Origin: a virus
Length of the DNA: 64,000 nucleotides
IMG/VR virus record: IMGVR_UViG_3300030117_004654
Location: 27,866 to 91,865 of that record
Direction: 5' to 3' (one strand)
Shown: positions 38 to 17,223 of the stretch, one piece after another
How the letters are laid out: the number at the start of each line of letters is the position of its first letter
Numbering within the stretch: the stretch's first letter is position 1
The notes under the pieces: model-generated
The model's input: the letters and a program-made list of their open reading frames with translations, nothing else
Told to the model about the DNA's origin: nothing
The model's database searches: none
Made by a program: the position numbers and the translations under genes

Positions 38-676
38 TCATTTACCTCCGGGCGGTTTTTGTTCTAAAGAGTAAATAAACTTTCTGTGCTTTTGTCCATA
101 TCGAGCAAGCATTTGTTTTGCTGATTGTGGAAATTTATCTTTATTCCAATCTTTTAATTCTTTTCTTGCAAGCAATTCTAATCTAGTTAACTTATTTTTT
201 TGTCTATGAGTTTTTGCCCAACGATTAACATAATTGATAAGTCTAGCAATTTTAGCGGGCATTTCTTTATGTGTTAATTCTTGACTAAGGCCTAGAATAT
301 AAGCGAACTTATTAAAATCTTGCTTTATTGTGTCTGGATGTTCAAGAAATTCTTTTAATGCAACATAAGGATTTTCAGGAAACATTCCCATATAAGCCAC
401 ATATTCTTTCTTTCTATTAGGATGCCAATAAAACTCTTCATCGGCTGCGTCGTGGGCTGCATGAGTTGATTCGTGCATAATCACTCTTTTAACATATTCC
501 ATTAATTCCTTTTCAGTTGGTTCTCTACCCAATTTAGTTTTTACAAAATCATAAATCTTTTTATGATTAATTTGGATATTACTAAATTCTGGCATATTAC
601 CCCAAGATTCATAATGACCTAATCCTTTAGGTTCATCACTAAAGTCAATATCAACCTTAAGAATATCCCACCACAT
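38..676 (-). CDS. Tagged HExxH metalloprotease-like protein (gluzincin type)
   Basis: 212 aa. The protein opens with MWWDILK, the N-terminal sequence shared by many proteins of this arm. It carries HESTH at residues 68-72, then E91-Y-V-A-Y95. HExxH plus a downstream ExxAY glutamate is the zinc site of small gluzincin proteases: two His and one Glu bind zinc, and E69 is the catalytic base. No signal peptide or membrane segment is visible. Role is inferred: virion protein processing, or a cargo protease delivered with the tagged set. Another tagged protein (14426-15070) has the same arrangement without sequence similarity elsewhere. Confidence is good for the zinc site and modest for activity. 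Confidence 0.6.
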   Translation of the reverse strand: MWWDILKVDIDFSDEPKGLGHYESWGNMPEFSNIQINHKKIYDFVKTKLGREPTEKELMEYVKRVIMHESTHAAHDAADEEFYWHPNRKKEYVAYMGMFPENPYVALKEFLEHPDTIKQDFNKFAYILGLSQELTHKEMPAKIARLINYVNRWAKTHRQKNKLTRLELLARKELKDWNKDKFPQSAKQMLARYGQKHRKFIYSLEQKPPGGK

Positions 677-688
677 AATTATATCCCC

Positions 689-1225
689 TTATATCGAAGC
701 CCCTGCTCTACTTTCTACTAGGAAAATCTCATCTGATTCTATACCGTATTTTTTACCATCTATTGCGGGAGTTTCTTTATCTAATATAACCTGCTCAAAG
801 TCAACGTATCTTTCTTCAGGCTTCCAATCCATATCAAGTTCTATCAATTCTCTCTTCTTTTCTTCAGGTGTTTGGTTCTCTAAAAACTCTAATGGGTCAC
901 GGATATATTTTACACTACCAAATGAACTTAATATTTTACCGTTGTAATTTTCTTTGAACCATTCTATTAATGTTTTAAGATTTTTAGCATAAATAGTTTT
1001 ACCTACACCAACCACAACACCGGTTTTATACCCATCGTAATCGGAATTACTGTAATCAAATTGACTAGAATCAAATGTAACATATTGTCCAGCAGGAACA
1101 TATGTAAATTTCATTCCATATTCTTCTTCTTTTATTTTAATAACTTTATGATTAGGTATAAGAATTCGTTTTTTGGGTTCAGGGTCTTGTCCCCCTCTTC
1201 TTCTTTTCAAAATATCAAACCACAT
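689..1225 (-). CDS. Tagged protein of unknown function
   Basis: 178 aa, beginning MWFDILKRRR, the shared N-terminal tag followed by basic residues. The rest has a Tyr/Asp-rich stretch around residues 52-66 and alternating beta-type segments, then a charged C-terminal third. I recognise no family. The start codon overlaps the stop of the upstream gene at 1225, so the two are translationally coupled. Confidence 0.75.
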   Translation of the reverse strand: MWFDILKRRRGGQDPEPKKRILIPNHKVIKIKEEEYGMKFTYVPAGQYVTFDSSQFDYSNSDYDGYKTGVVVGVGKTIYAKNLKTLIEWFKENYNGKILSSFGSVKYIRDPLEFLENQTPEEKKRELIELDMDWKPEERYVDFEQVILDKETPAIDGKKYGIESDEIFLVESRAGASI

Positions 1226-1590
1226 TATTCATCACCATATGTATATTCATACCAATCCCAATGAACCATATCAAGTAATTCTTCAAAATCTGCCGCTATC
1301 TTATCCCATTCAACATCTGCTAAAGCATGAGTTTGAGTAAACTCTTCAAGCATTAATTGGTAAGTCAAGCCCATATGAGGCGAATTTAGAATATTATGTA
1401 AATTCTTGGCTAACCACATTTCAGTTTGTTCAGGTGTTATGTTTTTTTCATTAGGATGTGGGTATTCCGGCGAGTCAGGGTCTAAAGCAATTGATAAAAG
1501 ATGTTTTGCCATCTCCCCATCTTCAACAAATATCTTACTATACATAGCCTGAGTAGCAGCGTTGCCTGTTTTTAATATATTAAACCACAT
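1225..1590 (-). CDS. Tagged acidic protein of unknown function
   Basis: 121 aa if translation starts at 1590, giving MWFNILKTG at the N terminus. An upstream in-frame ATG at 1617 would add nine residues and bury the tag, so 1590, lying two bases beyond the preceding gene's stop, is preferred. The body is helical and acidic, rich in Trp and Tyr near its C terminus, ending GDE. No family recognised. Confidence 0.72.
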   Translation of the reverse strand: MWFNILKTGNAATQAMYSKIFVEDGEMAKHLLSIALDPDSPEYPHPNEKNITPEQTEMWLAKNLHNILNSPHMGLTYQLMLEEFTQTHALADVEWDKIAADFEELLDMVHWDWYEYTYGDE

Positions 1591-1591
1591 A

Positions 1592-2197
1592 TTATTCACC
1601 AACAGGTTCGTAATCAATCAATAATGCTCTCCAAGTTTTCTCAAAACTATCACTATATTTCTTTACTGCCCATGCTGCATTAGGGTCATTTTCATATCTA
1701 TTTTTAAACCATTGAATGGTTTTTTCTGGTATACCCGGAAATTGTTCTAAAGCCTTTTCTGAAGGATTAATAATCCAATTAAATCTACCTCTTTGCATAT
1801 TTAAATATTTTCCGAGTGGAGTCGCTTTTGGCTTCAATCCTGCAATTTTAGGAACAACTATATTAGCATCTCTAGTATCTGCTAATCTAGAATAAACACC
1901 TCTAACCCCATTTGTTGTTCGATATTTAGGTATAACATAAGCATCACCAAAGAAAGCATAATCTCCTGCTAATTGATACCCAATAAAACCGACAGGTTTT
2001 CCTTTATCTTCAACATTAAAGTTATCATCATTATGAATTGCAACAATATATCTATTAATAGGATACATTTCAGATAATTCTGGATTTCTGGGGTCTAATT
2101 TTTTACCCCAAGATTCCTGCCAACGAGAAGCGATAGTACTTTTATCAGAATTTTGAAATCGAATCTCTAATTCGTGCATTTGATTTTCTTCAGTCAT
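1592..2197 (-). CDS. GNAT-like acetyltransferase
   Basis: 201 aa. The central part, residues about 65-110, reads as the core of a GNAT fold: a beta strand VGFIGY, a second strand ending in DAYVIPKYR, and then a helix with a glycine-containing turn (TTNGVRGVYSRL) in the place of the acetyl-CoA pyrophosphate loop. GNAT enzymes transfer acetyl groups to amines or protein N termini. It is one of the few proteins in this arm without the N-terminal tag. Its start overlaps the upstream gene's stop (ATGA). Substrate unknown; acetylation of virion or tagged proteins is only a guess. Confidence 0.5.
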   Translation of the reverse strand: MTEENQMHELEIRFQNSDKSTIASRWQESWGKKLDPRNPELSEMYPINRYIVAIHNDDNFNVEDKGKPVGFIGYQLAGDYAFFGDAYVIPKYRTTNGVRGVYSRLADTRDANIVVPKIAGLKPKATPLGKYLNMQRGRFNWIINPSEKALEQFPGIPEKTIQWFKNRYENDPNAAWAVKKYSDSFEKTWRALLIDYEPVGE

Positions 2198-4683
2198 CTA
2201 CACAACCCCTTAATCTTATAAATGATTTCTCCGCTAAGACCATAATTAGAAGAAAGATTTTGCATAGAGTCATGAGATTTAACTATTGAATCAATTTCAA
2301 TTGTAGTAACTTCGACCTTATCTTCTTTATGAATTCTATTTATTAGATAATCCATATCAGAAATATCATCAGTAAATAACTCACCATAATAAATTTTTAA
2401 TCCAGCCGATTTTCTGATAACATCATAAGCATTCATAATAGCATCATTGATTTCATCAGACTTTCTAACAGAAGGACTACTGACCTCTAAAAATTTATTA
2501 ACAAGTTCTTGTAATTTTTTACCACTAATCTCTCTAAACTTTTGTTCCTTTCTTAAAATTTGATTCATTTGTTCAGAAGAGAGTAATGTACGAAGTCTAG
2601 TAATAGGTTTCCTAGAATCTAATTTATCATACTCACTTAAGTTCTTACCCATAAAATTAATGGTACTAAGGTCAACATCAGGATAATTTCTTGTAGCAAT
2701 AGTTGAAGCATAGTCAGCCGCCCAATTTCTATTATCTTCTTCAAATTTTTCAGGTAATAATTCATCTAATATTTCAACAATATCTTCTAACGCTTGAATA
2801 AATATCGGCCAACTTTCTTCTCCACCCTTTCTAATAGTTTCAAAGAAATTAATAAGTTCTTGCAAATCAGTAATAGTAATATTTTCAGCATATCCATCCA
2901 AGATTTCTTGTTCTGCCTTAACCTCATCAGTTTGTGAAAAATTCATTTTAAGATTTCTAAAATCATAATTTCTAACATCTTCTGCAAAATCAGGTTTCTC
3001 ATCTTCAGCAAACATATTAGAAGTTAATGGACCGAAATAATATTTATCCATAGATTCTATCAAATTTTTAATAGCAGTATTAAATGTTTCTTCATCAAAC
3101 TTTCTCTTAATTGATGGTCTAAATGGTTGCGCTCTATCCATTCTCATTCCTGTTTTTGGAGGCGTTTTCTTACCTGCTTGTAATGGTGGTGCGCCGCTTC
3201 CACTCATAACATCACTAACACTTTGAGAAACCATAAATTGACCCTTACTTTCAATTAAAACATCATTAAGGAAAGCAAAGAAATCTTCAGCACTTTGATT
3301 TAAATTAGCATAATCCTGTTGTTTTATGGTTCCATCTTCACCTTCCATTAATTCAACTAACCAATCAGTGTAAGGAAGATAAACCGAATCATATTCGCTT
3401 TCAGCAGATGTTTCCATAATTTGTTCCCAAATATTCATTGCGTTTTTATATTCAGAATCTGTTGATTTTTCATAAGCATATTGTAAAAATTCTTTCATGT
3501 ATTCTTTGAAGAAATCTGACTCATCAAATGCAATAGGGATAGATATGTCATCAAATAATTGAGCCTCAATAATGTAATATAAAATAGGGTCAACCTTTTT
3601 ATTTTTAGTTAACAAATCAGTTTCTTCTAACGCAAGTTCACTCATTTGGCCTCTAACTTTACCTAATTTTTCTTTCCAATCTCTAGCAGTTCTTCCAAAA
3701 ATATCTTCCATATCTGAACTAGAAATTGCTTTTGGTGCATCCCGTATAACAACAGATTCTCCAACAACAGGCTCATTAATTCTTTGTCCCTGTTCAGTAT
3801 TAGGTCCGGGCCTTTGTAATTGAGTTAAATAATTTTTTGCTTCGTTTCTTGCACCTTCTTCATATTCTTTAAGATTCATACCAAGAGGTAATTTACCACC
3901 TAACATTTCCATTACTTTTAATAGACGCAATTGTTCTTTTTCTAATTTAATTCTAGGTGATTTAACATTAATTACATATTTAGGCAATTCTGGAATAGTT
4001 AACCCATGTTCCTCATTTGACCAAAAATCAGTATTTTTTAATTCTTTTGTAAATTGTTTCCAAGAGGTTTCTAACGCAGACCATTCATCATTAACCTTAT
4101 CCCAAAAAGTGTAGATAGTATCTCTATCTTTAGATAATGTTATATCAACATCATTAATTTCATCTAGCATACCATCAATAGTTAGTGTAACTTTCTTTAA
4201 TTTAGAAGGGTCAGGCATATTTGCTACATCTGCTGATAATTTAATCATTACTTGTTGTAATTGGGAAACACCTTCCATGCCCTGCTTTGATAACAATTGC
4301 TCAACAATTTCTAATTGTCCTAATAATTCTTCTAAATCGTCATCATCCTTAATGTATGTAAAATTGGGAGTAACCTTATTGACATTAAAGTTAGAAATTA
4401 AATTATTGTATTTCAAGTTACCTGAACCATATTTAATGTTCTTAAAATACTGTTTATCAATTTTATCAATTTGAGCAGGAGGGAAATACTGTGGCCCAGC
4501 GTCAGCAGACTTATCTCCTTCAGAAATAATTTCATCTAAATATTCATCAAAATCTAAACCTTCTGCTTCAATTGCATCTTCATAATCATCTTGGAAATCA
4601 TCAGACCAACGAGATACTTTATTTTGTATTTTGGCTTGTTTATAAGCCTCTATAAATTCTTGTTTTCTTTCTTCAAAACTCAT
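2194..4683 (-). CDS. Large acidic helical protein, probable virion-associated
   Basis: 829 aa from the ATG at 4683, which has a GGAGGA box seven bases upstream; the ATG at 4689 is too close to that box. N terminus MSFEERKQEF resembles but does not match the tag. The protein is Asp/Glu-rich and mostly helical, with predicted coiled-coil character between about 120 and 320, a proline-rich linker near 500-515 (PPLQAGKKTPPKTG), and no recognisable catalytic motif. The size and place in a structural-looking operon suggest a virion component. Function unknown. Confidence 0.75.
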   Translation of the reverse strand: MSFEERKQEFIEAYKQAKIQNKVSRWSDDFQDDYEDAIEAEGLDFDEYLDEIISEGDKSADAGPQYFPPAQIDKIDKQYFKNIKYGSGNLKYNNLISNFNVNKVTPNFTYIKDDDDLEELLGQLEIVEQLLSKQGMEGVSQLQQVMIKLSADVANMPDPSKLKKVTLTIDGMLDEINDVDITLSKDRDTIYTFWDKVNDEWSALETSWKQFTKELKNTDFWSNEEHGLTIPELPKYVINVKSPRIKLEKEQLRLLKVMEMLGGKLPLGMNLKEYEEGARNEAKNYLTQLQRPGPNTEQGQRINEPVVGESVVIRDAPKAISSSDMEDIFGRTARDWKEKLGKVRGQMSELALEETDLLTKNKKVDPILYYIIEAQLFDDISIPIAFDESDFFKEYMKEFLQYAYEKSTDSEYKNAMNIWEQIMETSAESEYDSVYLPYTDWLVELMEGEDGTIKQQDYANLNQSAEDFFAFLNDVLIESKGQFMVSQSVSDVMSGSGAPPLQAGKKTPPKTGMRMDRAQPFRPSIKRKFDEETFNTAIKNLIESMDKYYFGPLTSNMFAEDEKPDFAEDVRNYDFRNLKMNFSQTDEVKAEQEILDGYAENITITDLQELINFFETIRKGGEESWPIFIQALEDIVEILDELLPEKFEEDNRNWAADYASTIATRNYPDVDLSTINFMGKNLSEYDKLDSRKPITRLRTLLSSEQMNQILRKEQKFREISGKKLQELVNKFLEVSSPSVRKSDEINDAIMNAYDVIRKSAGLKIYYGELFTDDISDMDYLINRIHKEDKVEVTTIEIDSIVKSHDSMQNLSSNYGLSGEIIYKIKGLCR

Positions 4684-4685
4684 AT

Positions 4686-6965
4686 TCATTCCTCCGTTAA
4701 GAACCCTTCCTTGACTAAATCATCTAATAATTCAGGATATGTAGAATTTATTGCATCCATTTGATTATTTTTAATTTTCTCTAATCTTTTTTTAACAAGC
4801 CCTTTTATTCCATCTCTAATATTTTCCAAAGCCGTTTGCAAAGTTTTAGAAAAATCATCAACATCACTATCTAATTCTCCATCTAAAATATTTCTTAGTC
4901 TTTCTTTTTCTGGAATCTTTTCTTGATACTTATCATTTAATGTATGAAGAAGTGGTCTTAAAACTTTTTGGTCAGCAACTTCTTTTTCAACCTTTCCTAA
5001 AAAATCTATCACAGATATAAAATTAGAATTAGATAATTTTAGTTTTTCTTCCGGAGAAGAAGTAATTATTCCATTTGGACCTGTTAAATCTGAGGATGTA
5101 TAATACACATCGAATAAAGTGTATGCTATTGTTTTTTCTAGAGGAGAACCACTTTTAAGTTTATTTGCATCCTTAAATGTGCCTTCTTCTATATTACCAA
5201 CAAGACCTTGAAGGTGAAACTCTTTAGTTAAATGCCTATTATCAGGATTACGTCTAAAGGTTCTAAACCTACTTCTTAACGCCCTCCAATTACTAGGTGG
5301 ATTATCTAAATATAGATAGTTATGTAACTCTCTAACTATTTCCGAATATTTATCCGAACCTTCAGGTAATTTATACAACCCAACGACCTGTTTTGCACCG
5401 CCCTCTTTGGTCTGTGTGGGGGATTTTTCGCCACCGACCACCCCGAAACCACTGTTCTGACGGCCCTGTTTTTTTGAAATGAAATCAGAACGTTCTTCAG
5501 GAGAATAAGCGCGTAAAAACGCATCTACAAGTTTTTTATTATCGCCTTGAGGGTTCGCTTCTTGAAGTGCCGAGGCCAATAGGTCAATAAAATCAACGAA
5601 ATCTTTAGTAACTGAATTTCTAATTCTAGAAATCTTATCCTTCATACTTTGAACATATTTATCTCTAGACTCATTATAGATATTTTTATCTGGACTATTT
5701 AATTGAGCATTAAGAATAGTTTTATATTGTTTTTCATCTAAGTTATCTCTACCAAGTATTGTTAGAATACCGTCATCATCTTTATTACCGGTATTATATT
5801 TATTCCAAGATTGATTAACATAATCTTCTTTTACTGCATCTTCTCGTATAACAATACTAGATAATTCTGAAAACCATTCATTAGCAAGAGTATTTTCTAC
5901 TTCAGTATTTTGTTTCATAATTCCTTCTAGTAGAGGATTTAGCCACATCCTTTGATTTTTTTCCTGTTTACCTTTTAAGAATTTATTTAGACCTAATCCC
6001 ACCTTTAAATATCCTCTAATGGGATTGCCTCTAATTTTCTTTTTAGTTGCAAATTTTCTAAGATAAGTTAATGCTTCTCGTGGTGTAATATCATTAACTT
6101 GGTATTTTTTGATTTCTACATCTTGCTTAAGATGGCCAAAGAAAGCCTTAAGTTTTGGAGTATCTTCTGGAACATATTGAATAAGAGTTTGTACTGTTTC
6201 ATCACCAAGAGAACTTATTAGTAATACTTTATCTCTTCTTTTTGGTTGTAAACTTTTATAATTTTTAGCCATTAAAGTTTCAATTTCATCCCAATCTGGA
6301 GTTTGATTTGCCTTCAATGTTTCTGCCGCATCTTTGAGTAAATCTACTAATTGAGCATGGGCTAATTTTTGAGTTTGTGGTGGAGAACTCCTACCACCAT
6401 GAGTTGAATCATGTTCTTTGAACTTCTCCATCAATGGTTGTAATTTAACATAATTCTCTTTAACTAAATTTCTATTTTCTTTAAATTCGGCCCTATCAGT
6501 TTTTCTCTCAGAAAATGGAATTAAATCTTTTGCCGCAGAATTTTCATTCCATTCAAAGAATTTTTTATAAGTAATAGTTGGCTGCATAAATCCAGCAAAA
6601 GCATACTTATCAAATGTTTTTTCAAACAATTGTAGTTGTAAATCAAATGATATATCTGTAAGAAGTTTCCTCCACTTAGAATTATTTCTTCCGGGCAATT
6701 GTAATTTAGTAACAGATTTTTCTGACTTAAGCATCTTGTTTTCTTTAGTCATCTCGTCTAACCAATCTCTTGCATACTTAACAAAAAAATCTACTTCCTT
6801 TTCAGAATGCATTTTAATTAATTCTAGAATATAACTATTAATAAGATTATACCAATTAGGGTTTATTTTTTTAGCCTTACGCCAAATTTCAGGGGCGGCA
6901 TCATAAACCTCTTTCAATTTAGAAAGATTAGTTTTTTCTACCTTTAGAATATTTGCCCAATTCAT
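4686..6965 (-). CDS. Tagged large helical protein, probable virion-associated
   Basis: 759 aa beginning MNWANILKVEK, the shared tag, with a GGAGGA box before the start. Long Lys/Glu-rich helical body. A Gly/Ser/Gln-rich insert near residues 495-525 (KKQGRQNSGFGVVGGEK) is encoded by a locally GC-rich patch unlike the rest of the gene and looks like a flexible linker or processing region. No enzyme motif recognised. It overlaps both neighbours by four bases. Confidence 0.75.
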   Translation of the reverse strand: MNWANILKVEKTNLSKLKEVYDAAPEIWRKAKKINPNWYNLINSYILELIKMHSEKEVDFFVKYARDWLDEMTKENKMLKSEKSVTKLQLPGRNNSKWRKLLTDISFDLQLQLFEKTFDKYAFAGFMQPTITYKKFFEWNENSAAKDLIPFSERKTDRAEFKENRNLVKENYVKLQPLMEKFKEHDSTHGGRSSPPQTQKLAHAQLVDLLKDAAETLKANQTPDWDEIETLMAKNYKSLQPKRRDKVLLISSLGDETVQTLIQYVPEDTPKLKAFFGHLKQDVEIKKYQVNDITPREALTYLRKFATKKKIRGNPIRGYLKVGLGLNKFLKGKQEKNQRMWLNPLLEGIMKQNTEVENTLANEWFSELSSIVIREDAVKEDYVNQSWNKYNTGNKDDDGILTILGRDNLDEKQYKTILNAQLNSPDKNIYNESRDKYVQSMKDKISRIRNSVTKDFVDFIDLLASALQEANPQGDNKKLVDAFLRAYSPEERSDFISKKQGRQNSGFGVVGGEKSPTQTKEGGAKQVVGLYKLPEGSDKYSEIVRELHNYLYLDNPPSNWRALRSRFRTFRRNPDNRHLTKEFHLQGLVGNIEEGTFKDANKLKSGSPLEKTIAYTLFDVYYTSSDLTGPNGIITSSPEEKLKLSNSNFISVIDFLGKVEKEVADQKVLRPLLHTLNDKYQEKIPEKERLRNILDGELDSDVDDFSKTLQTALENIRDGIKGLVKKRLEKIKNNQMDAINSTYPELLDDLVKEGFLTEE

Positions 6966-8953
6966 GACTGTTCCTCCGGTTCAGGCTCATCAGGTTTCAT
7001 TTCTTCTTCCTTTTCTTCTTCCGCAAAAGTTTCTTTAGGCGGTTGAGTTGTTTCATCACTAATTGTTAATTCTTCTTCAGGTTCTTTTTCTTCAGGTTCT
7101 TCTGCCTGTTGTTCTTTTTCTTCAGGTGTTGGGTCAGGTGTTGGGTCAACTGCTCTTTCATGTGCATTTGATACCCAATCGCGTTCTGCTGCATTATATT
7201 TCCATTGACCATCAGGAGATAATTCGCCGTCTTTAGGGGCAGGTTTACCCATACTTCCTTCTTTCCAATCTCCCCCTTCTTGTGTTTCTGATTCAGGGAC
7301 TTCTCGCAACGGTGTCCTTTCTCGTAATCCATATTTCTGCTTAAATTCGCCTAATTTTCTTTTATGCCAAGGTGTAGTTTGTCGCATTACTTGTTTTTTA
7401 TTTCTTTGCAACATCTCTCTCCAATCATATAAATCTCTAGTTGGCATTTTAAATTCTGCCTCATTTTCTGGAAGTGCTTCGCCTTCTGCCCCAAATTTCT
7501 TTTCCCAATTAATAGGGATTTTTCTATCTAAACTTCTTATTGTTTTTCTCCAACCTTGAGGTCTTTCACTTTCAGCAACATCCATAATTTTCTTTTTTTG
7601 TTCAACTGCGTCAATAATCTTTTTCTTCTTTCTTTCTCTACCTCTTTGGATAGCACTGTCTTGGTCAGCAACATTACCCATCATACGCATTTCTTGCTCA
7701 AATCTTTTTTGATGCCATTTATCAGAACCGGGAGTATATTTAGAAGTTTTTAGTTGTTCTTTCCATCTACCAAGTTTTTCTTTACCAGCACCATATAATT
7801 CTTTACCCTTTTCTTTACCGGTATCATATAATTCTTTACCTGCATCAAAAACCATTTGAGCAGCATCACCTTGAACATTTCTCATTTGCGTTCTTGCTGC
7901 TGGGCCTAATCTTTCTTCTCTTTCTCTACGTTGTGCTTCCAACATATCTCTACGTTCATTTTCATCAGTAGCCTCATCAAACGCTTGATTAAACTCATCT
8001 CTTCTTAATTTATCTTGCCACCTATCATAAGCCTGTTTATGATGTTCTTTACCCCTTTGTTCTTTAGCAGGTTTATCTACCATTTCTCCTCTTAGGGCTT
8101 CTAATAATCTATTTCTATTTTGTTCTTGAGAAGAAGTTCTTTTATCAGAAACATCCCTAAATGCTTCTGTTAATCTTTCTAAATTTTTAGGTTGTGATGC
8201 TATTGTTTTTTCACGTAATTGTTGCAATCTTGATTTAGGAACAGGTTTATCTAATAACCTTTCTACTGCTGTTTTACCCCTTGGTTTATCAACTAAAGCA
8301 GATAAAGCAGGTGTTTTTTCCTTTCTCCATTCTTCGGGAGATAATGATGCTAATCTCTCTTTTTCTGCAATTTCTTCATCTTCTCTTTGAATATCTTCTT
8401 CAATTTCTGTAAGCCACTCATCGCCTACTTTATTTCTTCTTTTAGTATCTGCACCACGACGGGCGGCTTCTGAGCGTTTATCGGCTAATGCCTCTTGTTC
8501 GCCCTCTTCTACTAATCTACGTTGTTCTAGAATATCTTCTCCGCGAAGACGATTTCTTTCCTCTTCTTTTTCTCTTCTTCTTGCAGACTCTATTCCTCTT
8601 TGTTCTAATTTGGCTTGTTCCGCACGTTCACCTTCAAGGAATTTTTCTCTATTTGCTGCATCTAATTCTAATCCACTTAATTGTTGTTCTCCTCTTGAAC
8701 GTGGACCAAAACCTAATGCTCTTATAGCCCTTTGTGACCAAGTTTCTTTAGGAAGTTCTCCTTCCCCTGACCTTGCTCTTTCCATTCTTTCTTTTCTTTC
8801 AGCAGCAACTCTTTCTTTTTCTGCTTCTCTAGCCATATAGTCACTAAATTCATCTTCAGTCATATCTGAATCAGATGCTTCTTGAATTCTTCTCATTGTA
8901 TCTTGATGAGCCCTTCGGCTTTTTTCGATGTTTAATGTATCTTTCCAAGTCAT
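6962..8953 (-). CDS. Tagged highly charged coiled-coil protein with LEA-like repeat
   Basis: 663 aa beginning MTWKDTLNIEK, a variant of the tag. The composition is extreme: Arg, Glu, Lys and Gln dominate almost throughout, consistent with long coiled coils. Around residues 367-395 an 11-residue pattern (GKELYDTGKEK, then GKELYGAGKEK) repeats, similar in style to LEA or apolipoprotein-type amphipathic repeats. The last 60 residues are Pro/Glu-rich and probably disordered. Such a protein could act as scaffold, internal core or DNA-condensing partner; none of these is shown by the sequence alone. Confidence 0.72.
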   Translation of the reverse strand: MTWKDTLNIEKSRRAHQDTMRRIQEASDSDMTEDEFSDYMAREAEKERVAAERKERMERARSGEGELPKETWSQRAIRALGFGPRSRGEQQLSGLELDAANREKFLEGERAEQAKLEQRGIESARRREKEEERNRLRGEDILEQRRLVEEGEQEALADKRSEAARRGADTKRRNKVGDEWLTEIEEDIQREDEEIAEKERLASLSPEEWRKEKTPALSALVDKPRGKTAVERLLDKPVPKSRLQQLREKTIASQPKNLERLTEAFRDVSDKRTSSQEQNRNRLLEALRGEMVDKPAKEQRGKEHHKQAYDRWQDKLRRDEFNQAFDEATDENERRDMLEAQRREREERLGPAARTQMRNVQGDAAQMVFDAGKELYDTGKEKGKELYGAGKEKLGRWKEQLKTSKYTPGSDKWHQKRFEQEMRMMGNVADQDSAIQRGRERKKKKIIDAVEQKKKIMDVAESERPQGWRKTIRSLDRKIPINWEKKFGAEGEALPENEAEFKMPTRDLYDWREMLQRNKKQVMRQTTPWHKRKLGEFKQKYGLRERTPLREVPESETQEGGDWKEGSMGKPAPKDGELSPDGQWKYNAAERDWVSNAHERAVDPTPDPTPEEKEQQAEEPEEKEPEEELTISDETTQPPKETFAEEEKEEEMKPDEPEPEEQS

Positions 8954-9090
8954 TGCTCATCACCCCAATACCATTCATAAATTTTATCTATTATATCTTT
9001 ATGTTCGTTCTTATGGTCGCGCCAAATTTTCTTTTTATTTAAGTTTTTATATCCTTCAAGTTGAGCGTTCCAATAGTCCCAATTGAACAT
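8950..9090 (-). CDS. Small Trp-rich protein
   Basis: 46 aa (MFNWDYWNAQL...), ending WYWGDEQ. It sits between tagged genes with a four-base overlap to the next gene. The N terminus has Trp at position 4 in a context that might be a degenerate tag. Five Trp and four Tyr in 46 residues. No family recognised. Confidence 0.55.
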   Translation of the reverse strand: MFNWDYWNAQLEGYKNLNKKKIWRDHKNEHKDIIDKIYEWYWGDEQ

Positions 9091-9170
9091 TATAATCCTT
9101 TTCCCCATACTGTATATCTTGGCAAATACTGTGCGTATTTAGATAACCATGTTGCTAATTTATCAATCAC
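9090..9170 (-). CDS. Possible 26-residue peptide, GTG start
   Basis: A GTG at 9170 overlaps the end of the upstream gene, and the frame ends in TAA sharing a base with the ATG of the next gene (TAATG). The peptide (VIDKLATWLSKYAQ...) is amphipathic. Support comes only from the tight overlaps at both ends. Confidence 0.3.
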   Translation of the reverse strand: MIDKLATWLSKYAQYLPRYTVWGKGL

Positions 9171-9477
9171 TTTCTTCGCCTAACCAATTAAGTAAAATTT
9201 TCTTATTTGCTTCTTTGTCTGCAAATCTACCGTGTAAGGAAGGGGCTAAATCATATTCCCTAAGCATCATTTGAATTTGTTTAAGCACCATTCTAGCGGT
9301 TTCAGGGTCTTCTGCTGACATATATGTTTTTATCATATTCAAAAGAACAGGTCGCATTCTTTCTTTCATAGCCGCCTGAACTTCTTTTTCTGCTTCTCTT
9401 ACATCTTTTGGTGCAAATCTTCTTGCATCAGATATAGCATCCTTTGTGCTAATTTTTAATATATCTTCCCAACTCAT
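9163..9477 (-). CDS. Tagged small helical protein
   Basis: 104 aa, MSWEDILKIST at the N terminus, a nearly ideal copy of the shared tag. The rest is helical with mixed charge. The start overlaps the upstream stop by four bases (ATGA). No family recognised. Confidence 0.75.
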   Translation of the reverse strand: MSWEDILKISTKDAISDARRFAPKDVREAEKEVQAAMKERMRPVLLNMIKTYMSAEDPETARMVLKQIQMMLREYDLAPSLHGRFADKEANKKILLNWLGEESD

Positions 9478-9938
9478 TGTAATTCCTCCTTAATTTCATC
9501 TATCCGTCTTTTTAATTCAGACATTTCTCTTTCTCTAGATGCCCCATACCTTTTGTAATCAACATTATTCTTACGTTTAGTATGTGAATGAACATTTTTA
9601 ATCCTATCATATTCTTTTTGAAGACGTTTTAACTCTCTCATTAACGGGTCACGTTTAGTAGATTCTATTAATTCTCTAGCCCTAACGTCAACATCACTTT
9701 TAAGTGTCTCTGCGGTTTCTAAACTTTTATCCGGTTCAATTCTTTCAAACTTTGTCCATAAACTGGGATTAGTTCTTCCATCAAACGGGTCATCATATAA
9801 ATTAGAAAACCAATATGTTCCATTTATTTTATGAAATAAGTAAACAGTTTTACCTGAAGAATTTGCTAATTTTTGTGCTTCTGCTCTAGTAGAATCTAAA
9901 TCGCTACTTTCTTTTCTAAGAATATCTTCCCAACTCAT
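9474..9938 (-). CDS. Tagged small protein with C-terminal coiled coil
   Basis: 154 aa, MSWEDILRKES at the N terminus. Residues about 20-60 form a compact segment (GKTVYLFHKINGTYWF) reminiscent of a small beta domain; residues 95-154 are a Lys/Arg/Glu heptad-type coiled coil. Overlaps both neighbours by four bases. Function unknown. Confidence 0.75.
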   Translation of the reverse strand: MSWEDILRKESSDLDSTRAEAQKLANSSGKTVYLFHKINGTYWFSNLYDDPFDGRTNPSLWTKFERIEPDKSLETAETLKSDVDVRARELIESTKRDPLMRELKRLQKEYDRIKNVHSHTKRKNNVDYKRYGASREREMSELKRRIDEIKEELQ

Positions 9939-10597
9939 TGTAACTTCCTTTCCATTTCTTTCTTAACATCTAACCAGACATTAGGGTGTTGTTGAGCCAA
10001 GACTTCTTTAACAATTTGCATCTGTGCAATAACAATAGTATCCTGTCTTTTGTGAATAAGTTTACCTTTGAATTCCATAAGGTATTTTAGGCTCTCTCTA
10101 ACTTCTCTCGCTAACTTAGTTAATGAGTCAATCTGTTTAGCGTCTAAAACTTCCTCTTGGAAAATCTCATCTAATTTAATATCTAATTTCTGAATGTTCT
10201 TTGAAAGTAATTCAATTTCATCTAACTCTTTCTTAGCAATAATAGTGGCTGCTGATTTCTGAACAACAGGTTGAAGGTGACTTTTCATGTGAACTGCAAT
10301 TTGTTCTCTTGTTGTCCCTAATGTTTCTGCAAGAGCCTTTGAAGATAAAGTCCCATCTTTAACTCCTTTTTCAAAAATATCTCTCATAGGGTGAGTGCAA
10401 ACTTTACATCGAGGATTAGCCTTTTCTTCATATTCTCCAATATGATTCCTTAAATGTCTACTTGATACACCTGAAGGCCAACCCATTTTTTTATCTAATT
10501 CATCAGGTGTAATAGATAAAGAATTTAACGAATTTTCTAATTCTTCTCTGTCATCATGTTGACAAAGGCGACAATGCTTACGGGTTTTCTTACTCAT
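9935..10597 (-). CDS. Duplicated zinc/HTH DNA-binding protein with coiled coil
   Basis: 220 aa without the tag. Two related N-terminal units each have a CxxC followed about 35-40 residues later by an HxxxH: first CRLC...HLRNH, second CKVCTH...HMKSH. Between them lie helix-turn-helix-like segments (SSKALAETLGTTREQIAVHM). Residues 120-220 are helical and charged. The layout suits a sequence-specific DNA-binding protein that multimerises; a small terminase or a regulator of this operon are possibilities, neither proven. ATGA overlaps on both sides. Confidence 0.55.
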   Translation of the reverse strand: MSKKTRKHCRLCQHDDREELENSLNSLSITPDELDKKMGWPSGVSSRHLRNHIGEYEEKANPRCKVCTHPMRDIFEKGVKDGTLSSKALAETLGTTREQIAVHMKSHLQPVVQKSAATIIAKKELDEIELLSKNIQKLDIKLDEIFQEEVLDAKQIDSLTKLAREVRESLKYLMEFKGKLIHKRQDTIVIAQMQIVKEVLAQQHPNVWLDVKKEMERKLQ

Positions 10598-10740
10598 TCG
10601 TGGTCCACCTTTACAATAAATTTAGCAATCTTCATTAATTTGTTCCAACCCTCTTCATCATCATTATCAAAATGTTCAAGCAATAAACTAATATGACCAC
10701 GCAATTCTTTATTTGCTTTACAATAATCCATTTTACTCAT
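10594..10740 (-). CDS. Small hypothetical protein
   Basis: 48 aa (MSKMDYCKANKELRG...). Both ends overlap neighbouring genes by four bases, which is the main support. Helical and acidic in the middle. No family recognised. Confidence 0.6.
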   Translation of the reverse strand: MSKMDYCKANKELRGHISLLLEHFDNDDEEGWNKLMKIAKFIVKVDHE

Positions 10741-12014
10741 AAGTAATCTCTCCATAAATGTTGTGACCATGATTTTTTAACATTACCTCCACCTTCAGGC
10801 GGTTCATCAGGTAATGCCCATCTTGGAATAGTTAGCCCTTCTTGCTTTGCTCGTTTTAATTCAGCATTAAATAATTCCTTTCTTTTTTCTTGGACTCTAG
10901 CAGCATCGAACAAAAATATACCTGTCTTCCCATCGTGCTTGAAAGTATCTAAAGTATAACGACCTAAATCCATTTGAGAAATAATAGTTCTAATTAATGA
11001 ATTAGAAATCCCTTGAATATAAAATGATTCTAATTGTCCTGCCAAATCTGCATTACCTGAAGCACGTAAAACCAAGTCACTTAGTTTTTCATCATTAGGG
11101 TCAATAATAAATTTAGTTTCCATTAACTTACGACGGTAAGCATTAAAGTTAATCTGCAATCTTTTGAATGGGGCATTAGCACTATGATAAACTGATTGGT
11201 CTTTAAGAATAACTTGCATTGTTTCAATTACTGCTGGAACTTGTTGTAATAATTCCCTTTGTCCTCTACCTTTAATCTGTAATTCTTCTAAAGGTTGTTC
11301 CTCAATCTCTTCTTCAAGTTTTCTCAATAAAGGTAATAGCCCTGTTGTAATAACATCACCGTCACCATCTGCAAAAAGGGCTTGCCAAAAAGGAGGCTTT
11401 GCTGTATTAGGACTTCTCTTAATCCAATCATCACCCATTTCAATATTAGGCTCATTTTTACCTTTAACTTCCTCTCTATACTTTACATAGGTAGGAGTTC
11501 TATAATGACCATAAACAGTTTCCCATTCATCTACACCATCAGCAGTTAAAGATTTAGGAACAGTAAATGGAATATTTCTAGGATTAGTTTTCTCATCTCT
11601 CTCAATCTCTTCTAAATCTTCAATGAAATCTTCTATCGCTAAAAGTTCCTTTGTCTTAAATGCATGAACATCCCCAATCATTTCCATTACTGAATCAATA
11701 ATATCCATAGAACCCTGTCTTTCAGGTTGTCCGGCTCTTTGATAACCACTATCAATATGTCTAGTAATATGTTCTAACAAACTCCTACTACCATGTTTAC
11801 CTGTAACACCAATAGAGTTCATAGTCTTACTTCTACAAGTATTATACCATGCAGTAATTTCTTTTTTAATTTTATTTAAAGAACTAGTAGTAATAACTTT
11901 TACTTTATCGCCACTATCTAATGTTTCTTCAGCAGCACCTTTCTTAGCCTTCTTAGTAGACTTTACAATAAAGTCCTCTAAAGCATAAGACTTTAGAACT
12001 TGTTGCCATGCCAT
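10737..12014 (-). CDS. Tagged virion-type protein with a second tag-like end
   Basis: 425 aa from the ATG at 12014 (MAWQQVLKSYA); the ATG at 12023 would add three residues in front of the tag. Mostly helical, with an acidic stretch near residue 135 and a defined C-terminal domain. The last 15 residues contain KKSWSQHLWRD, which resembles the tag again. No catalytic motif. Position and size suggest a structural or internal virion protein. Confidence 0.72.
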   Translation of the reverse strand: MAWQQVLKSYALEDFIVKSTKKAKKGAAEETLDSGDKVKVITTSSLNKIKKEITAWYNTCRSKTMNSIGVTGKHGSRSLLEHITRHIDSGYQRAGQPERQGSMDIIDSVMEMIGDVHAFKTKELLAIEDFIEDLEEIERDEKTNPRNIPFTVPKSLTADGVDEWETVYGHYRTPTYVKYREEVKGKNEPNIEMGDDWIKRSPNTAKPPFWQALFADGDGDVITTGLLPLLRKLEEEIEEQPLEELQIKGRGQRELLQQVPAVIETMQVILKDQSVYHSANAPFKRLQINFNAYRRKLMETKFIIDPNDEKLSDLVLRASGNADLAGQLESFYIQGISNSLIRTIISQMDLGRYTLDTFKHDGKTGIFLFDAARVQEKRKELFNAELKRAKQEGLTIPRWALPDEPPEGGGNVKKSWSQHLWRDYL

Positions 12015-12019
12015 AATAA

Positions 12020-12280
12020 TCACTCAAATCCTTCATACATACTACAATAACCTTTTTCATTAACATCAACAAAATTTAATTGACATTCTCCATAGGCATT
12101 ATGTTTACAGGTTCTTGCTTCACACTTTCTAACCTTACATTTATCTTTTCCACCAAAACCTGCTTTTTGGTTTTTGGGTGGTTTATCATAAGATGCTGCT
12201 TTATCTTCTCTACGTTGACGCATCTCACGTAAATCATATTCACGTTCAGATTTTGGGTGCAATTGTTCTTTCCAACTCAT
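12020..12280 (-). CDS. Cys-rich small protein, DUF1540-like
   Basis: 86 aa beginning MSWKEQLHPKS, a weaker tag. The C-terminal half has the pattern C-x4-C-x4-C-x7-C-x13-C with CKHNAYGEC, which matches the DUF1540 type of small Cys-rich module (probably metal binding). The N-terminal half is Arg/Lys-rich. Overlaps both neighbours. Confidence 0.6.
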   Translation of the reverse strand: MSWKEQLHPKSEREYDLREMRQRREDKAASYDKPPKNQKAGFGGKDKCKVRKCEARTCKHNAYGECQLNFVDVNEKGYCSMYEGFE

Positions 12281-12564
12281 ATTACACCACCTGTCCTAGT
12301 TACTTCATAAACCACTTTATTATCACCTTGTGATTTTAATTTAAAATGATATACTTCATAATAATCTCTACTCTCTTCTTCAATTTTAAATTCCTTAATA
12401 GGTTTACCTTTTTTCGCTCTCACAATTTTATCGGCTTTACCTTCTACGCCACTAAAAAGTCCCTCTTCAATTGGATTATTTCTATCATATACCCATTCTC
12501 CGATTGCACCTTTAGGGCCGGGTTTAAAATTAATTCTTGATTTTAATATGTCTTCCCAACTCAT
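12277..12564 (-). CDS. Tagged small beta-rich protein
   Basis: 95 aa from the ATG at 12564, giving MSWEDILKSRINF; the preceding GGTGATTAAA is a suitable ribosome site. A longer frame from 12612 would place 16 residues ahead of the tag and is not favoured. The C-terminal half looks like beta strands (YYEVYHFKLKSQG). No family recognised. Confidence 0.72.
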   Translation of the reverse strand: MSWEDILKSRINFKPGPKGAIGEWVYDRNNPIEEGLFSGVEGKADKIVRAKKGKPIKEFKIEEESRDYYEVYHFKLKSQGDNKVVYEVTRTGGVI

Positions 12565-12565
12565 T

Positions 12566-12913
12566 TTAATCACCAATTCTATCATATAGTGGCTGAATAT
12601 CTTCTTCAGCATGATTAAGACCTATTATTGGATAGTCTATTGTTTCCATTGGTAATGTAGCAAAATTTTCTAATTCCCTCATAATTTTTTTTATTTTATT
12701 CACATCATTAATTGGGTCTAATTTGTAAAGTGGATTTGTTATTTTATCAAATTGTTTCGCCCAATAAGCATCGCTACCATCTGAATACATTTCAAACGTT
12801 TGAATGCCATAACCTTCAAGTTCATTGTAGAGCCAATCCTTCCAAAGTTTTCTTATCATTTCCTCCAATGGAGGATATTCGGCATCTGTTTTCAATATAT
12901 CCTTCCAACTCAT
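12566..12913 (-). CDS. Tagged acidic protein
   Basis: 115 aa, MSWKDILKTDA at the N terminus. Trp- and Tyr-containing helical body, acidic overall, ending GD. No family recognised. One base separates it from the next gene. Confidence 0.73.
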   Translation of the reverse strand: MSWKDILKTDAEYPPLEEMIRKLWKDWLYNELEGYGIQTFEMYSDGSDAYWAKQFDKITNPLYKLDPINDVNKIKKIMRELENFATLPMETIDYPIIGLNHAEEDIQPLYDRIGD

Positions 12914-12914
12914 T

Positions 12915-14429
12915 TCAATCCCTCCAAAAATCTAATTCTTTAGGAACAATCAACTGTTCGTTTTCTTCTTCCTTTTTAGTTTTCTTTTTCTTTTTTCCAA
13001 CTACTTTATTGTTTATTAATCCGGGTGTTGAATTAGAAGCAGTTACAGGACCACCTTGTTTAAGAGCATCAAACCATGATTTTTCCATATTCTCCACATC
13101 ATCTTTTCTTCTTCCTCTATGTCCTCTTACAGGTCCACGCTGTTTCATTCTAATAGCCGCCTTACGCCTTTTTTCTTGTTCATCCTTAGTTCTTACTCTT
13201 TCTTCTTGTTTATCCGTGTCTGCTAAAAACTGTTGATAATTTTGTTGAATGGATGATAAACGAGATTTTTCTTTTTCTTTTTGTTCTCTATAATATCTAT
13301 CTCTTTTTTCTTGTTCTTCTCGCTTTTTACGTGCCAATCTTCTTTCAGATATTTCTGATAATTTTTTAGCATACTTGTCTAAATCTTGAGAAGAAGGTAA
13401 ACTATCACTTAACATCTTTTCATATTTTTCAAGAGCAGGTTGCACTGATTCCATTATTGCTGGTTCAGCAACTCTTTGAATTAAAAGTGTATCAATTAAT
13501 CTCCAAGGAGGGGTTTCATAAAGTTCCCAAAGATTTCTAACAGTAGAATCATCTAATGCTTCTTCATAAGCCTTTTTCCAAAAACCATTGAGAATTTCTA
13601 ATCTTTTTTCTTCTTTAGTAGAGATAGCATTAACAATATCACTTCTATAATATCTACTCTCTAAAGGTAAAAATGAGCCTAACGCACCACCTGTTCTAGT
13701 GAGTATTATATTAATATTTGACTCATGTTGTTTTCTGTTATCATCAGCCATTTTTTGAGACTTAGAAAGAAAATCCTGCATAGCAATTTTAACCCTACCT
13801 TTGCTAGAACCAACAAAGCGAAGAATTCTTGGGGAAGACTTAAGTGCATAATCCTTTAATGATTTCATATCATTAATACCTTTTGCTTCTTTTTCTGCCT
13901 CATGCTTTGCTCGCTTCTCTGTATCTAAAGCACCAATATTTCCGGGATGAAGAGGTTCTCTTTCTGGATATTTTCTTCTTTGACCCTGCATTATTTCTCT
14001 ACTTGGTTTAATAATATATTCAGTTGCATCAGGAAACTTATCACCTAATTGTGCTTCAATTTCAGATTTAACTTGAGCCTGTCTTTGTTTTCTAGGAACT
14101 TCAAATTTATAACCTGCGCGGATTAATTTCTGGTGTAAACTATCTTTACCTCTAGCGCGAGTAATAGGTCTATTTGTAACAAACTTAAAACCCCAATCAA
14201 GGTTCTTTTTAGCACCTCTCGGTGATTCAGTTAAAACCCCTTCTTCAGTAATTACTGCGGGGTCAACTTTTTGAATAGTGGGTCCACGAATAATACGAAT
14301 ATCTTCTTCACCTCTATCCCATGATTCTAGAATACTAATTAACACTTCTGGATTATATTCAAAATTAACTCTACGGCTCTTTTCGTCAAATTCAACAAGA
14401 GGTCTTTTAATAATATTTTCCCAACTCAT
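12915..14429 (-). CDS. Tagged long coiled-coil protein with an internal tag copy
   Basis: 504 aa beginning MSWENIIKRPL. The region from about 345 to 440 is a Lys/Arg/Glu/Gln coiled coil. Near residue 452 the sequence MEKSWFDALKQGG recurs to the tag theme inside the protein, followed by a basic Lys-rich patch (GKKKKKTKKEEE) and the end LDFWRD. The internal copy after a long coiled coil suggests a second docking site or a processing product. Function unknown; internal head or scaffold role is a guess. Confidence 0.72.
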   Translation of the reverse strand: MSWENIIKRPLVEFDEKSRRVNFEYNPEVLISILESWDRGEEDIRIIRGPTIQKVDPAVITEEGVLTESPRGAKKNLDWGFKFVTNRPITRARGKDSLHQKLIRAGYKFEVPRKQRQAQVKSEIEAQLGDKFPDATEYIIKPSREIMQGQRRKYPEREPLHPGNIGALDTEKRAKHEAEKEAKGINDMKSLKDYALKSSPRILRFVGSSKGRVKIAMQDFLSKSQKMADDNRKQHESNINIILTRTGGALGSFLPLESRYYRSDIVNAISTKEEKRLEILNGFWKKAYEEALDDSTVRNLWELYETPPWRLIDTLLIQRVAEPAIMESVQPALEKYEKMLSDSLPSSQDLDKYAKKLSEISERRLARKKREEQEKRDRYYREQKEKEKSRLSSIQQNYQQFLADTDKQEERVRTKDEQEKRRKAAIRMKQRGPVRGHRGRRKDDVENMEKSWFDALKQGGPVTASNSTPGLINNKVVGKKKKKTKKEEENEQLIVPKELDFWRD

Positions 14430-15070
14430 TTCTTACCACCTTTTATTCTTAAGATTCTATTTTTAAATGTAAGGGTTAAAAAGTTCCATTTTCTTTCCGC
14501 TTCCTGCCCAATAACATTTGCTAAATTTCTTTGAATAGGTTTTAATTCAAATCTTAACAAATCTTCAACCATATCTTCAATGCGACCCATCATATCATAA
14601 TTGTCTTTCAATTCTGCATATTTTAAATTCTTCTCACTAGAATAGGCAAACAACTCTTCCATAAATAACATTTCAGTATAATCGCCAACTAATCTTTTTA
14701 ACTCTTTTTGGCTACTAACAAAATTGTTAACATCTACATCTTTAACTAATTTTTTTAATTCCTTCTCAAACTTATTATATCTAGGTTGCATTTCACTTGC
14801 CATAGCCTGATGAGTAACTTCATGTGTATCTATATCAATTAGTAATTCAATAAAATCATCAATATCATTTGCGGTAACACCATCTTCTATTACACTTTCC
14901 CATACATTATCTAAAAATACTACCGCCCTATCTGTTTTTTCATCATATACCCCTAAAGATACAATAGGTTCTTTTGCAGTAGTGTTTGGATTAGTATCAT
15001 ATATTCCATCTTTTCTATCTAATTCACGTAATGATGTAGAAAGTTCAGCCTTCAATATATCTGTCCACAA
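14426..15070 (-). CDS. Tagged HExxH metalloprotease-like protein, TTG start
   Basis: 214 aa starting at a TTG (15070) preceded by GGTGAT; the first residues MWTDILKAEL match the tag, which fixes the start. HEVTH occupies residues 83-87, and E139-L-F-A-Y143 supplies the downstream ExxAY glutamate. This is the gluzincin zinc-protease arrangement also seen at 38-676, but here about 50 residues separate the two parts. The body is helical. Likely a protease acting on virion or host proteins; catalytic activity is inferred. Confidence 0.58.
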   Translation of the reverse strand: MWTDILKAELSTSLRELDRKDGIYDTNPNTTAKEPIVSLGVYDEKTDRAVVFLDNVWESVIEDGVTANDIDDFIELLIDIDTHEVTHQAMASEMQPRYNKFEKELKKLVKDVDVNNFVSSQKELKRLVGDYTEMLFMEELFAYSSEKNLKYAELKDNYDMMGRIEDMVEDLLRFELKPIQRNLANVIGQEAERKWNFLTLTFKNRILRIKGGKK

Positions 15071-15100
15071 AATATCACCAAATTTTTGGGGGAAATTTTT

Positions 15101-15418
15101 TTAAACAGGATGTTTTCCTACTTTAATTATACACGACATATACATATCGGACAATTTTCTAAATTTTTCTAAACTAGGATGAGTATAATCTTCTGTCATA
15201 TGGTCTTTGTATGCCGGAGGGTCATATTCACCTGTACGAGTATTAAAGGAATATTTATCATCCCATTCAATTAGGAAATCTTCAATATTACCCCATACTT
15301 TTTCAGCACCTTCAAGAGTTAAATCATGATTCGTATTAAACATTTTATTATATTCAGTAATAAGTTGTTTTTCACAAGGTCCGAATTCTTCATTTTTAAG
15401 TATATCCATCCAATTCAT
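15101..15418 (-). CDS. Tagged small protein, first gene of the left arm
   Basis: 105 aa beginning MNWMDILKNEEFG. It is the first gene of the minus-strand run that ends beyond base 1, so the promoter for the tagged arm should lie just upstream, between 15419 and about 15600. No family recognised. Confidence 0.73.
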   Translation of the reverse strand: MNWMDILKNEEFGPCEKQLITEYNKMFNTNHDLTLEGAEKVWGNIEDFLIEWDDKYSFNTRTGEYDPPAYKDHMTEDYTHPSLEKFRKLSDMYMSCIIKVGKHPV

Positions 15419-15511
15419 CTAAAATCACCTTTATTTCTCAAAATTTGGGCTGTAATTTATGAGGCACTAGCAAAAATTTTTTTAAGTTAATTATTCTATT
15501 TCCAGTATAAG

Positions 15512-15582
15512 AACTAATGTTTATAAGAACGTAGTTTAAAAGTAAAGATTATAATCATTATATTTGAAAGTAAACATTAGTT
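15512..15582. repeat. 12-bp perfect inverted repeat
   Basis: AACTAATGTTTA at 15512-15523 is matched by its exact reverse complement TAAACATTAGTT at 15571-15582, with 47 bases between. The spacing is too long for a simple terminator; paired operator half-sites for a regulator of the left arm are the plausible reading. Confidence 0.6.
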
Positions 15583-15857
15583 TAATCATATTTAATGTTG
15601 GAATACTTGTAATGGTATGCAAACCTTATGGCCGAAGTTTGTTTTAAAGTTAACTTAATAAGTGTTTAATATAAACAATACGTGTAATATAATATAAATG
15701 TATAATGCACATTTGCCATAAGTGATACGACTTACAGTATGCGATATTGACTACCCTTCATATAGTCTTGCATAATACAGACAATATTTTATGTGCAAAA
15801 TAGCAAATAAGTCATTATTCCGCATTAATTTTAATTAAATAAAAAATCGGTGCAAAG

Positions 15858-15865
15858 CATATGGT
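15858..15865. promoter_or_regulatory. CATATGGT palindrome element, copy 1
   Basis: GCATATGGTTGTGTAAA. The bases after the core match copy 7 (GGTTGTaAA). Lacks the CTTTGG arm, so it is a degenerate copy. Confidence 0.45.
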
Positions 15866-15900
15866 TGTGTAAAACCTCATTTAATTTAATATACTGCTAT

Positions 15901-15923
15901 CATATGGTAATGTATTAACTTTG
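15901..15923. promoter_or_regulatory. CATATGGT palindrome element, copy 2
   Basis: CATATGGTAATG is followed by AACTTTGGGAAATA, the same right arm (ACTTTGG then AATA-like) seen in copies 3 and 4. Confidence 0.5.
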
Positions 15924-15950
15924 GGAAATACAATATTGCCCCGAAGGGCG

Positions 15951-16124
15951 TTATTTACAAGGATATCTTAAATCCTCTATCCGACCTCTAAATCGTTTAG
16001 GGTCGAAATTATAGTTATCAGTACCAAACATATTAACAAAAAATGTTATTGTTCGGTCTGAAGCGTCACTAAACGCTAATGTTTCAGCAATTGCCTCATA
16101 ATGCCGTCGTTGGAATTTACTCAT
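15951..16124 (-). CDS. Small conserved viral-type protein
   Basis: 57 aa from the ATG at 16124 (MSKFQRRHYEAIAETL). The start shares bases with the preceding stop (TAATG), and GGAGG lies just upstream. The opening F-x-R-R-H-Y-x-x-I-A pattern is one I associate with small proteins of unknown function found in many tailed viruses. No catalytic motif. Confidence 0.6.
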   Translation of the reverse strand: MSKFQRRHYEAIAETLAFSDASDRTITFFVNMFGTDNYNFDPKRFRGRIEDLRYPCK

Positions 16125-16243
16125 TAGTATTCCTCCACGCATTCAATACAGGCAAATTCGCCATCCCAGAGATAACCACCTTCAAGGTGAACTTCTATCT
16201 CTTTTCCGCAATTAGCGCATTCACAGTCATAACTTGTTGTCAT
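16124..16243 (-). CDS. Micro zinc-binding protein
   Basis: 39 aa (MTTSYDCECANCGKEIEV...). Cysteines are arranged C-x-C-x2-C and, near the end, C-x2-C, as in a one-finger zinc ribbon. The start overlaps the upstream gene (ATGA), and the stop overlaps the downstream start. Confidence 0.6.
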   Translation of the reverse strand: MTTSYDCECANCGKEIEVHLEGGYLWDGEFACIECVEEY

Positions 16244-16428
16244 TCTTCTCCCTCCACTTCGTATTCAACTGTTGTTGGCTCATATAGTAATTTAGGCATA
16301 CCTACCTTATCCATATAATTAACGATAGCGTCAACCTGTTGCATATATTTCCAAATTGAACTGCTATACGCCTTCAAATCTGCTTTCGTCATTTCGTGCA
16401 TTTCCTCTACTGTTTTTATTTCATTCAT
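16240..16428 (-). CDS. Small acidic helical protein
   Basis: 62 aa (MNEIKTVEEMHEM...), ending EGEE. A strong AAGGAGG box is seven bases before the ATG. No family recognised. Confidence 0.6.
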   Translation of the reverse strand: MNEIKTVEEMHEMTKADLKAYSSSIWKYMQQVDAIVNYMDKVGMPKLLYEPTTVEYEVEGEE

Positions 16429-16430
16429 AT

Positions 16431-16496: not shown

Positions 16497-16580
16497 TTTA
16501 AAAGCCCCACTGTTCAAAAGGATACATTTTCATTCCTCGGCAATAAGAGCATTATTCAAATAGGTTTAGGGTGCGTGTAA

Positions 16581-17200: not shown

Positions 17201-17223
17201 CGATAGATGAGTAAAAGATGTGG

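Follow-up and report, generated by a model that had tools for sequence, protein, structure and literature searches.

An eight-residue tag, M-[ST]-W-x-[DN]-I-L-K, opens 13 genes and, in weaker form, a fourteenth, all of them on the minus strand of the 64,000-nucleotide stretch of viral DNA analysed here (the window). Judging from sequence and gene surroundings, we consider it probable (roughly 0.7) that the tag is a cleavable capsid-docking peptide for internal, probably injected, cargo, which would work in the manner of phage T4 while being unrelated in sequence to the T4 signal.

Magroviruses are very common ocean viruses with archaeal hosts. The window corresponds to bases 27,866-91,865 of the 91,865-bp (91.9 kb) IMG/VR virus record IMGVR_UViG_3300030117_004654, which is a magrovirus, a virus of Poseidoniales archaea; the record is placed in the order Magrovirales because its two-arm plan and gene set match those reported for that order of Poseidoniales viruses (PMC10768690, PMC12999244). 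The plus arm of the window holds replication genes, including a family B polymerase recognised by match and a clamp loader, TFB, ribonucleotide reductase, GroEL and GroES recognised by inspection, and a cluster of three tRNAs (Lys, Leu, Arg) lies at 21642-21921. The minus arm consists of late genes and runs on to the left of the window, where TerL, portal, protease-scaffold, capsid and tail genes are found. The head genes, in record coordinates, are:

13423-14760, minus arm: HK97-fold/SU10-like major capsid protein
14798-16084, minus arm: S78 prohead protease fused to a scaffold-like region
23038-24666, minus arm: portal
26459-27901, minus arm: TerL

Several other features of the two arms were observed. 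Each arm encodes an ATP-dependent-ligase-like protein (record G000 16103-18661, L011:2104-4662:-, and window 38196-39725), the late one having a DNA_ligase_A_M match and a tag-like SDWKQLLG in its sequence. A small GTPase-like protein with a weak Roc/MMR_HSR1 match (record G000 10899-11570, L010:10899-11570:-) lies between head and tail genes, is kept in eight of nine magrovirus genomes and is never tagged. Plus-arm proteins often have EEE as their last residues (45 of 458 early vs 13 of 593 late proteins across nine magrovirus genomes), as do those at 17645-18190, 22393-22719 and 30335-30607 of the window; a start codon lies at most 16 nt downstream of 34 of the 45, and the cause may be a purine-rich ribosome-binding signal that overlaps the stop codon.

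The tagged genes of the window, whose ORF calls are mechanical and whose start codons are predicted, are the following:

38-676, minus strand: MWWDILK-tagged, HExxH zincin-like protein (HESTHAAHD)
689-1225, minus strand: MWFDILK-tagged protein
1225-1590, minus strand: MWFNILK-tagged protein; the longer possible start, TTG at 1617, would leave the tag internal
4686-6965, minus strand: MNWANILK-tagged protein of 759 aa
6962-8953, minus strand: weak tag MTWKDTLN on a charged coiled-coil-like protein
9163-9477, minus strand: MSWEDILK-tagged protein
9474-9938, minus strand: MSWEDILR-tagged protein
10737-12014, minus strand: MAWQQVLK-tagged protein, family present in 9/9 genomes
10737-10778, minus strand: C-terminal tag-like end KKSWSQHLWRDYL of the MAWQQVLK protein
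12020-12280, minus strand: weak tag MSWKEQLH on a small cysteine-containing protein with a weak DUF1540 match
12277-12564, minus strand: MSWEDILK-tagged protein; the longer possible start, ATG at 12612, would leave the tag internal
12566-12913, minus strand: MSWKDILK-tagged protein
12915-14429, minus strand: MSWENIIK-tagged protein with an internal tag-like KSWFDALK
14426-15070, minus strand: MWTDILK-tagged, HExxH zincin-like protein (HEVTHQA) with a TTG start
15101-15418, minus strand: MNWMDILK-tagged protein

A preliminary description made from the letters alone had listed these 13 N-termini, with MSWKEQLH as a weak fourteenth, and all were recovered on the minus strand, as were the TTG start it gave to one gene (15070) and its two metalloprotease-like enzymes, which correspond to the two tagged HExxH proteins; longer possible starts, noted there for two genes, were found for the genes starting at 1590, 12014 and 12564. 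The observation itself was thus borne out, although the range in which it had been placed, 38-15418, proved too narrow, since about eight further tagged genes lie beyond the window among the TerL, portal, prohead protease and capsid genes (record positions):

24833: MWFDTLK-tagged gene
22677: MWFNLLK-tagged gene
19357: MNEWFDVIK-tagged gene
10646, 10382, 10139 and 9239: further tagged genes
9938: weakly tagged gene

The tagged set thus surrounds the head genes. Many members of the family of the gene at record G000 19357-19692 have a split tag, MTWDYY....EFILK, in which the Trp part stands apart from a FILK-like part, and an untagged GNAT-like protein (weak Pfam match) sits within the tagged block at window positions 1592-2197. 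Scans of the window proteins against Pfam and PHROGs gave almost no matches, and a search for loci related to the 504-aa tagged protein found no relative.

The tag is tied both to protein starts and to one arm of the genome. Among ORFs of about 200 related loci, part of which were chosen by the tag itself, the pattern M.{0,2}W..[ILV][ILV][KR] follows 592 of 3994 start-proximal ATGs vs 10 of 12244 internal ones. When loci were chosen by their capsid gene only, the count was 114 of 1360 on the capsid strand and 0 of 68 on the other. Nine genomes that are whole or nearly so (one was covered except for its final 2.9 kb, and several were reached via tag loci) give 174 tagged of 634 capsid-strand genes vs 0 of 528 other-strand genes (Fisher p about 6e-52). 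The preliminary description had named as refuting findings a motif equally frequent in plus-arm genes and homologues without the tag; the other arm lacks the motif, and in the larger families the tag is mostly kept (275 of 375 members by a loose pattern), and 15 further members have a C-terminal copy.

The DNA form of the motif was found, repeatedly, in 39 of 41 virus records, a reversed control pattern giving no matches, and it lies on the strand of the major capsid protein wherever that protein was found, with one exception in G028. Nearly all loci with at least two tags (92 of 93) contain a magrovirus homologue. The loci analysed are metagenomic and partly redundant, with exact duplicates removed. 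Outside magroviruses, 84,980 cellular genomes (species) yielded just 41 scattered single matches, none titled Poseidoniales. No DNA match to the tag was found in the haloarchaeal relative HJTV-1 within 1-42 kb, nor in HCTV-1, the haloarchaeal virus with the nearest capsid protein found, on the plus strand with the head genes at 58-103 kb. Two observations concern individual records. G010 (IMGVR_UViG_3300021958_000021, 184,733 bp) has two major capsid proteins and two tag blocks, and is therefore probably two genomes joined in assembly. Some family members (homologues in L094, L118, G009 and G012) read INWRSILK with no ATG, GTG or TTG just upstream, and may start at an ATA or ATT codon.

Across magroviruses we collected 615 distinct tagged proteins in 331 families, 259 of them singletons; since BLAST set the family limits, 331 is best read as an upper estimate for unrelated bodies. 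The preliminary description held that the bodies share nothing visible beyond the tag, and indeed 135 body-distinct members align as MxWxDILK with nothing else in common, so that one short terminal peptide is common to otherwise unrelated proteins, as in T4-type systems. The last position is nearly fixed (K in 416, R in 6 and any other residue in at most 2), and there is no strong residue preference past it. Codons for the Ile, Val, Leu and Lys of the tag vary much as they do in gene bodies, and those of the window's tags vary synonymously, the exception being Ser2, which is AGT in 82% of tags vs 30% in bodies. Because tag codon choice largely follows that of the bodies, selection acts on the amino acids.

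The distribution of the tag among proteins is equally uneven. Late families present in seven to nine of the nine genomes have 3% of their genes tagged, vs 35-47% for rarer late families, and TerL, portal, protease, capsid and tail-tube genes are never tagged (0%). A membrane-like segment was found in none of the 615 tagged proteins vs 53 of 436 other late proteins; tagged proteins are richer in Lys and Arg (18% vs 13%) and lower in Cys. Pfam or PHROG matches are missing from nearly all tagged bodies. The recognisable ones include a tRNA nucleotidyltransferase opening with MGWMQILK, in which alignment of the conserved fold begins only past the tag, soluble PAP2-like phosphatases, a 2H-phosphoesterase-like protein, a GNAT acetyltransferase and a weak SAM lyase match; HExxH occurs in 13 of the 615 and the reversed motif in none. 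As a group the tagged proteins look like accessory, possibly counter-host, factors.

A related motif occurs at the end of the scaffold. The C-terminus of the protease-scaffold reads M-[DSET]-W-x-[DE]-[IVL]-[HN], in short form M-[DS]-W-x-[DE]-I-[HN], throughout the 57 distinct ends listed for homologues, apart from one with L for M, despite the variability of the scaffold itself. In a low-confidence structure model (pLDDT 54) a C-terminal helix begins at the Trp (W416), the blocks concerned having pLDDT 74-80; taken with the 57 listed ends, this points to a C-terminal scaffold helix that is conserved. The motif also closes another conserved small protein of the head module (record 19115-19360). 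Tag and scaffold end have only M-[SD]-W-x-[DE]-[IVL] in common. In P22, other phages and herpesviruses studied so far the scaffold C-terminus is the coat-binding part (PMC12005531). A read-through structure model of the natural scaffold and capsid genes, aimed at docking, gave pLDDT 37 and pTM 0.19, values that speak neither for nor against docking.

The second half of the tag resembles predicted maturation sites. The form [IL]-[LI]-K recurs as F.ILK before the folded protease domain, as [KR]FDILK at the protease-scaffold junction and, at a third predicted site, as N.[LI]LK at the N-terminus of the capsid protein, and in the low-confidence protease model such sites fall in regions without structure that flank the barrel. 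The final Lys of the tag corresponds to that of these predicted cleavage sites; Lys is present in 100% of them, partly by construction since the regular expressions fix it, and the site residues are nearly invariant in unforced alignments as well.

Copies of the motif also occur at the other end of proteins. The family of the window gene at 10737-12014 has the tag N-terminally in three members across its nine genomes; most have a C-terminal copy, which in many stands instead of, or beside, the N-terminal tag and reads KKSWQDILRW, VLKSWIDILRN, LKKSWNEILKVN or alike. Two proteins of more than 1000 residues end in TWREILKVN and SWQEILKVVR. In the nine genomes C-terminal copies number 12 in late proteins vs 1.2 expected (Poisson p about 6e-9; several of the 12 are homologous, so there are fewer independent events), and 1 vs 1.3 in early proteins. 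Internal copies in late proteins show no enrichment (1 match vs 4 in reversed proteins), so only the termini count. These copies favour a docking peptide and go against explanations tied to the start codon, and since a cut after their Lys would remove few residues, cleavage cannot be the whole story.

In the mechanism that we propose, the short amphipathic tag would recruit diverse soluble proteins into the magrovirus prohead, where tag and scaffold C-terminus would share a binding partner, in the simplest case the capsid protein. At maturation the S78-type prohead protease would cut after the invariant Lys ([IV]-[LI]-K) and free the cargo inside the shell; the cargo would then stay in the head and probably enter the cell with the DNA. 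The preliminary description had suggested a signal for docking or packaging, similar to the capsid-targeting sequence of T4, and this is supported by the co-location with the head arm, the absence of the tag from core virion proteins and replication genes, the motif at the scaffold C-terminus, the end point at predicted protease sites and the C-terminal copies. Against this mechanism stand the limited overlap between tag and scaffold end and those family members whose tag is degenerate or missing.

One may also consider that the tag docks proteins to an assembly platform other than the capsid, such as the portal vertex, the tail, the terminase or a cytoplasmic assembly site, its carriers being morphogenesis helpers. 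Tagged genes do sit among TerL, portal and protease genes, and the position of the tagged proteins inside the shell is itself something we infer. We nevertheless regard this as unlikely: the scaffold that bears the related motif is an interior component, the [IL][LI]K at which the tag ends agrees with predicted prohead-protease sites, and hundreds of patchy, mostly orphan proteins are better explained as accessory cargo than as helpers. That protease sites and tag have [IL][LI]K in common, with a nearly invariant Lys, might also mean that the tag is only a cleavage leader through which the prohead protease activates or trims proteins targeted by other parts. This is improbable, as the Trp half, which the protease and capsid sites lack, is found at the scaffold C-terminus, a cut in the C-terminal copies does almost nothing, and the bodies have no other targeting part in common.

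Slightly less credible still is a signal directed at the host (a degron, a membrane-binding amphipathic helix or a dock for a host factor once the cell is infected). When drawn as an amphipathic helix, the peptide places W3, I6 and L7 on one face, but it is absent from all early genes, the side of host takeover, its matches in cellular genomes are few and scattered with none titled Poseidoniales, and its final Lys coincides with predicted viral protease sites; we know of no archaeal-cell processing site at such a Lys. A translation-initiation or mRNA-level signal that incidentally encodes a peptide is largely refuted: it would account for the position at the start codon and for the AGT bias of Ser2, but not for the variation of the Ile, Val, Leu and Lys codons, the C-terminal copies or the lack of tags in genes of the other arm.

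Beyond a cleavable docking peptide, we lean, with odds only a little better than even, towards a general cargo-loading code, a two-part terminal peptide of which one half comes from the coat-binding end of the scaffold and the other is a prohead-protease release site, grafted N- or C-terminally onto hundreds of unrelated proteins and delivering ever-changing effectors into archaea. We know of no earlier capsid-targeting code in an archaeal virus, nor, for T4 or P1, of a residue-level answer to how cargo finds the prohead. Such a tag is not mentioned in the magrovirus literature accessible to us, a scope outside which Philosof 2017 and Prabhu 2025 fall. If the reading is true, hundreds of orphan genes become a predicted list of virion-packaged, possibly injected proteins, and genomes alone would reveal what uncultured viruses probably carry into their hosts. 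The tag would also suggest a simple origin for such signals, namely copying of the scaffold's capsid-binding end, and recognition between cargo and prohead would become testable with one capsid protein, one scaffold and one peptide.

By analogy, the tag probably works like the capsid-targeting sequence of T4. There, internal proteins (IPs) and Alt begin with short propeptides, which direct these proteins to the prohead core and which the protease removes (PMC7411985), and the diverse carriers have only the targeting sequence in common (PMC3012670); the annotated leader of T4 IpII has 10 residues. As with IPI-III and Alt, whose peptide is removed by gp21, a short N-terminal peptide is found in magroviruses on unrelated soluble proteins; its end matches the [IL][LI]K of the predicted prohead-protease sites. 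Yet the tag lies outside the T4 sequence family (MKTYQEFI.E, cut after Glu), because its sequence, M.W.DILK, is unrelated and its P1 residue is Lys rather than Glu. Whereas T4 has four tagged proteins, magroviruses have 14-23 per genome, C-terminal copies and a related motif on the C-terminus of the scaffold.

In phage P1, the N-terminal 30 residues of DarB direct a reporter into the capsid (PMC9024508). Unlike the magrovirus tag, the Dar proteins form one system of six proteins in which no N-terminal consensus was found. Encapsulins dock diverse cargo in an HK97-fold shell by a short terminal peptide, a likeness that we draw at the level of function. Encapsulins, unlike magroviruses, package no genome and have no maturation protease; with a terminase, portal and maturation protease in the record, the tag does not belong with encapsulin cargo-loading peptides. 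In the scaffolds of P22 (gp8), SPP1 and HSV-1 (UL26/26.5) the coat-binding part is C-terminal; the related magrovirus motif lies at the extreme C-terminus of a protease-scaffold fusion, as in herpesvirus UL26. In contrast to those scaffolds, the magrovirus motif is also found on hundreds of putative cargo proteins, mostly at their N-termini.
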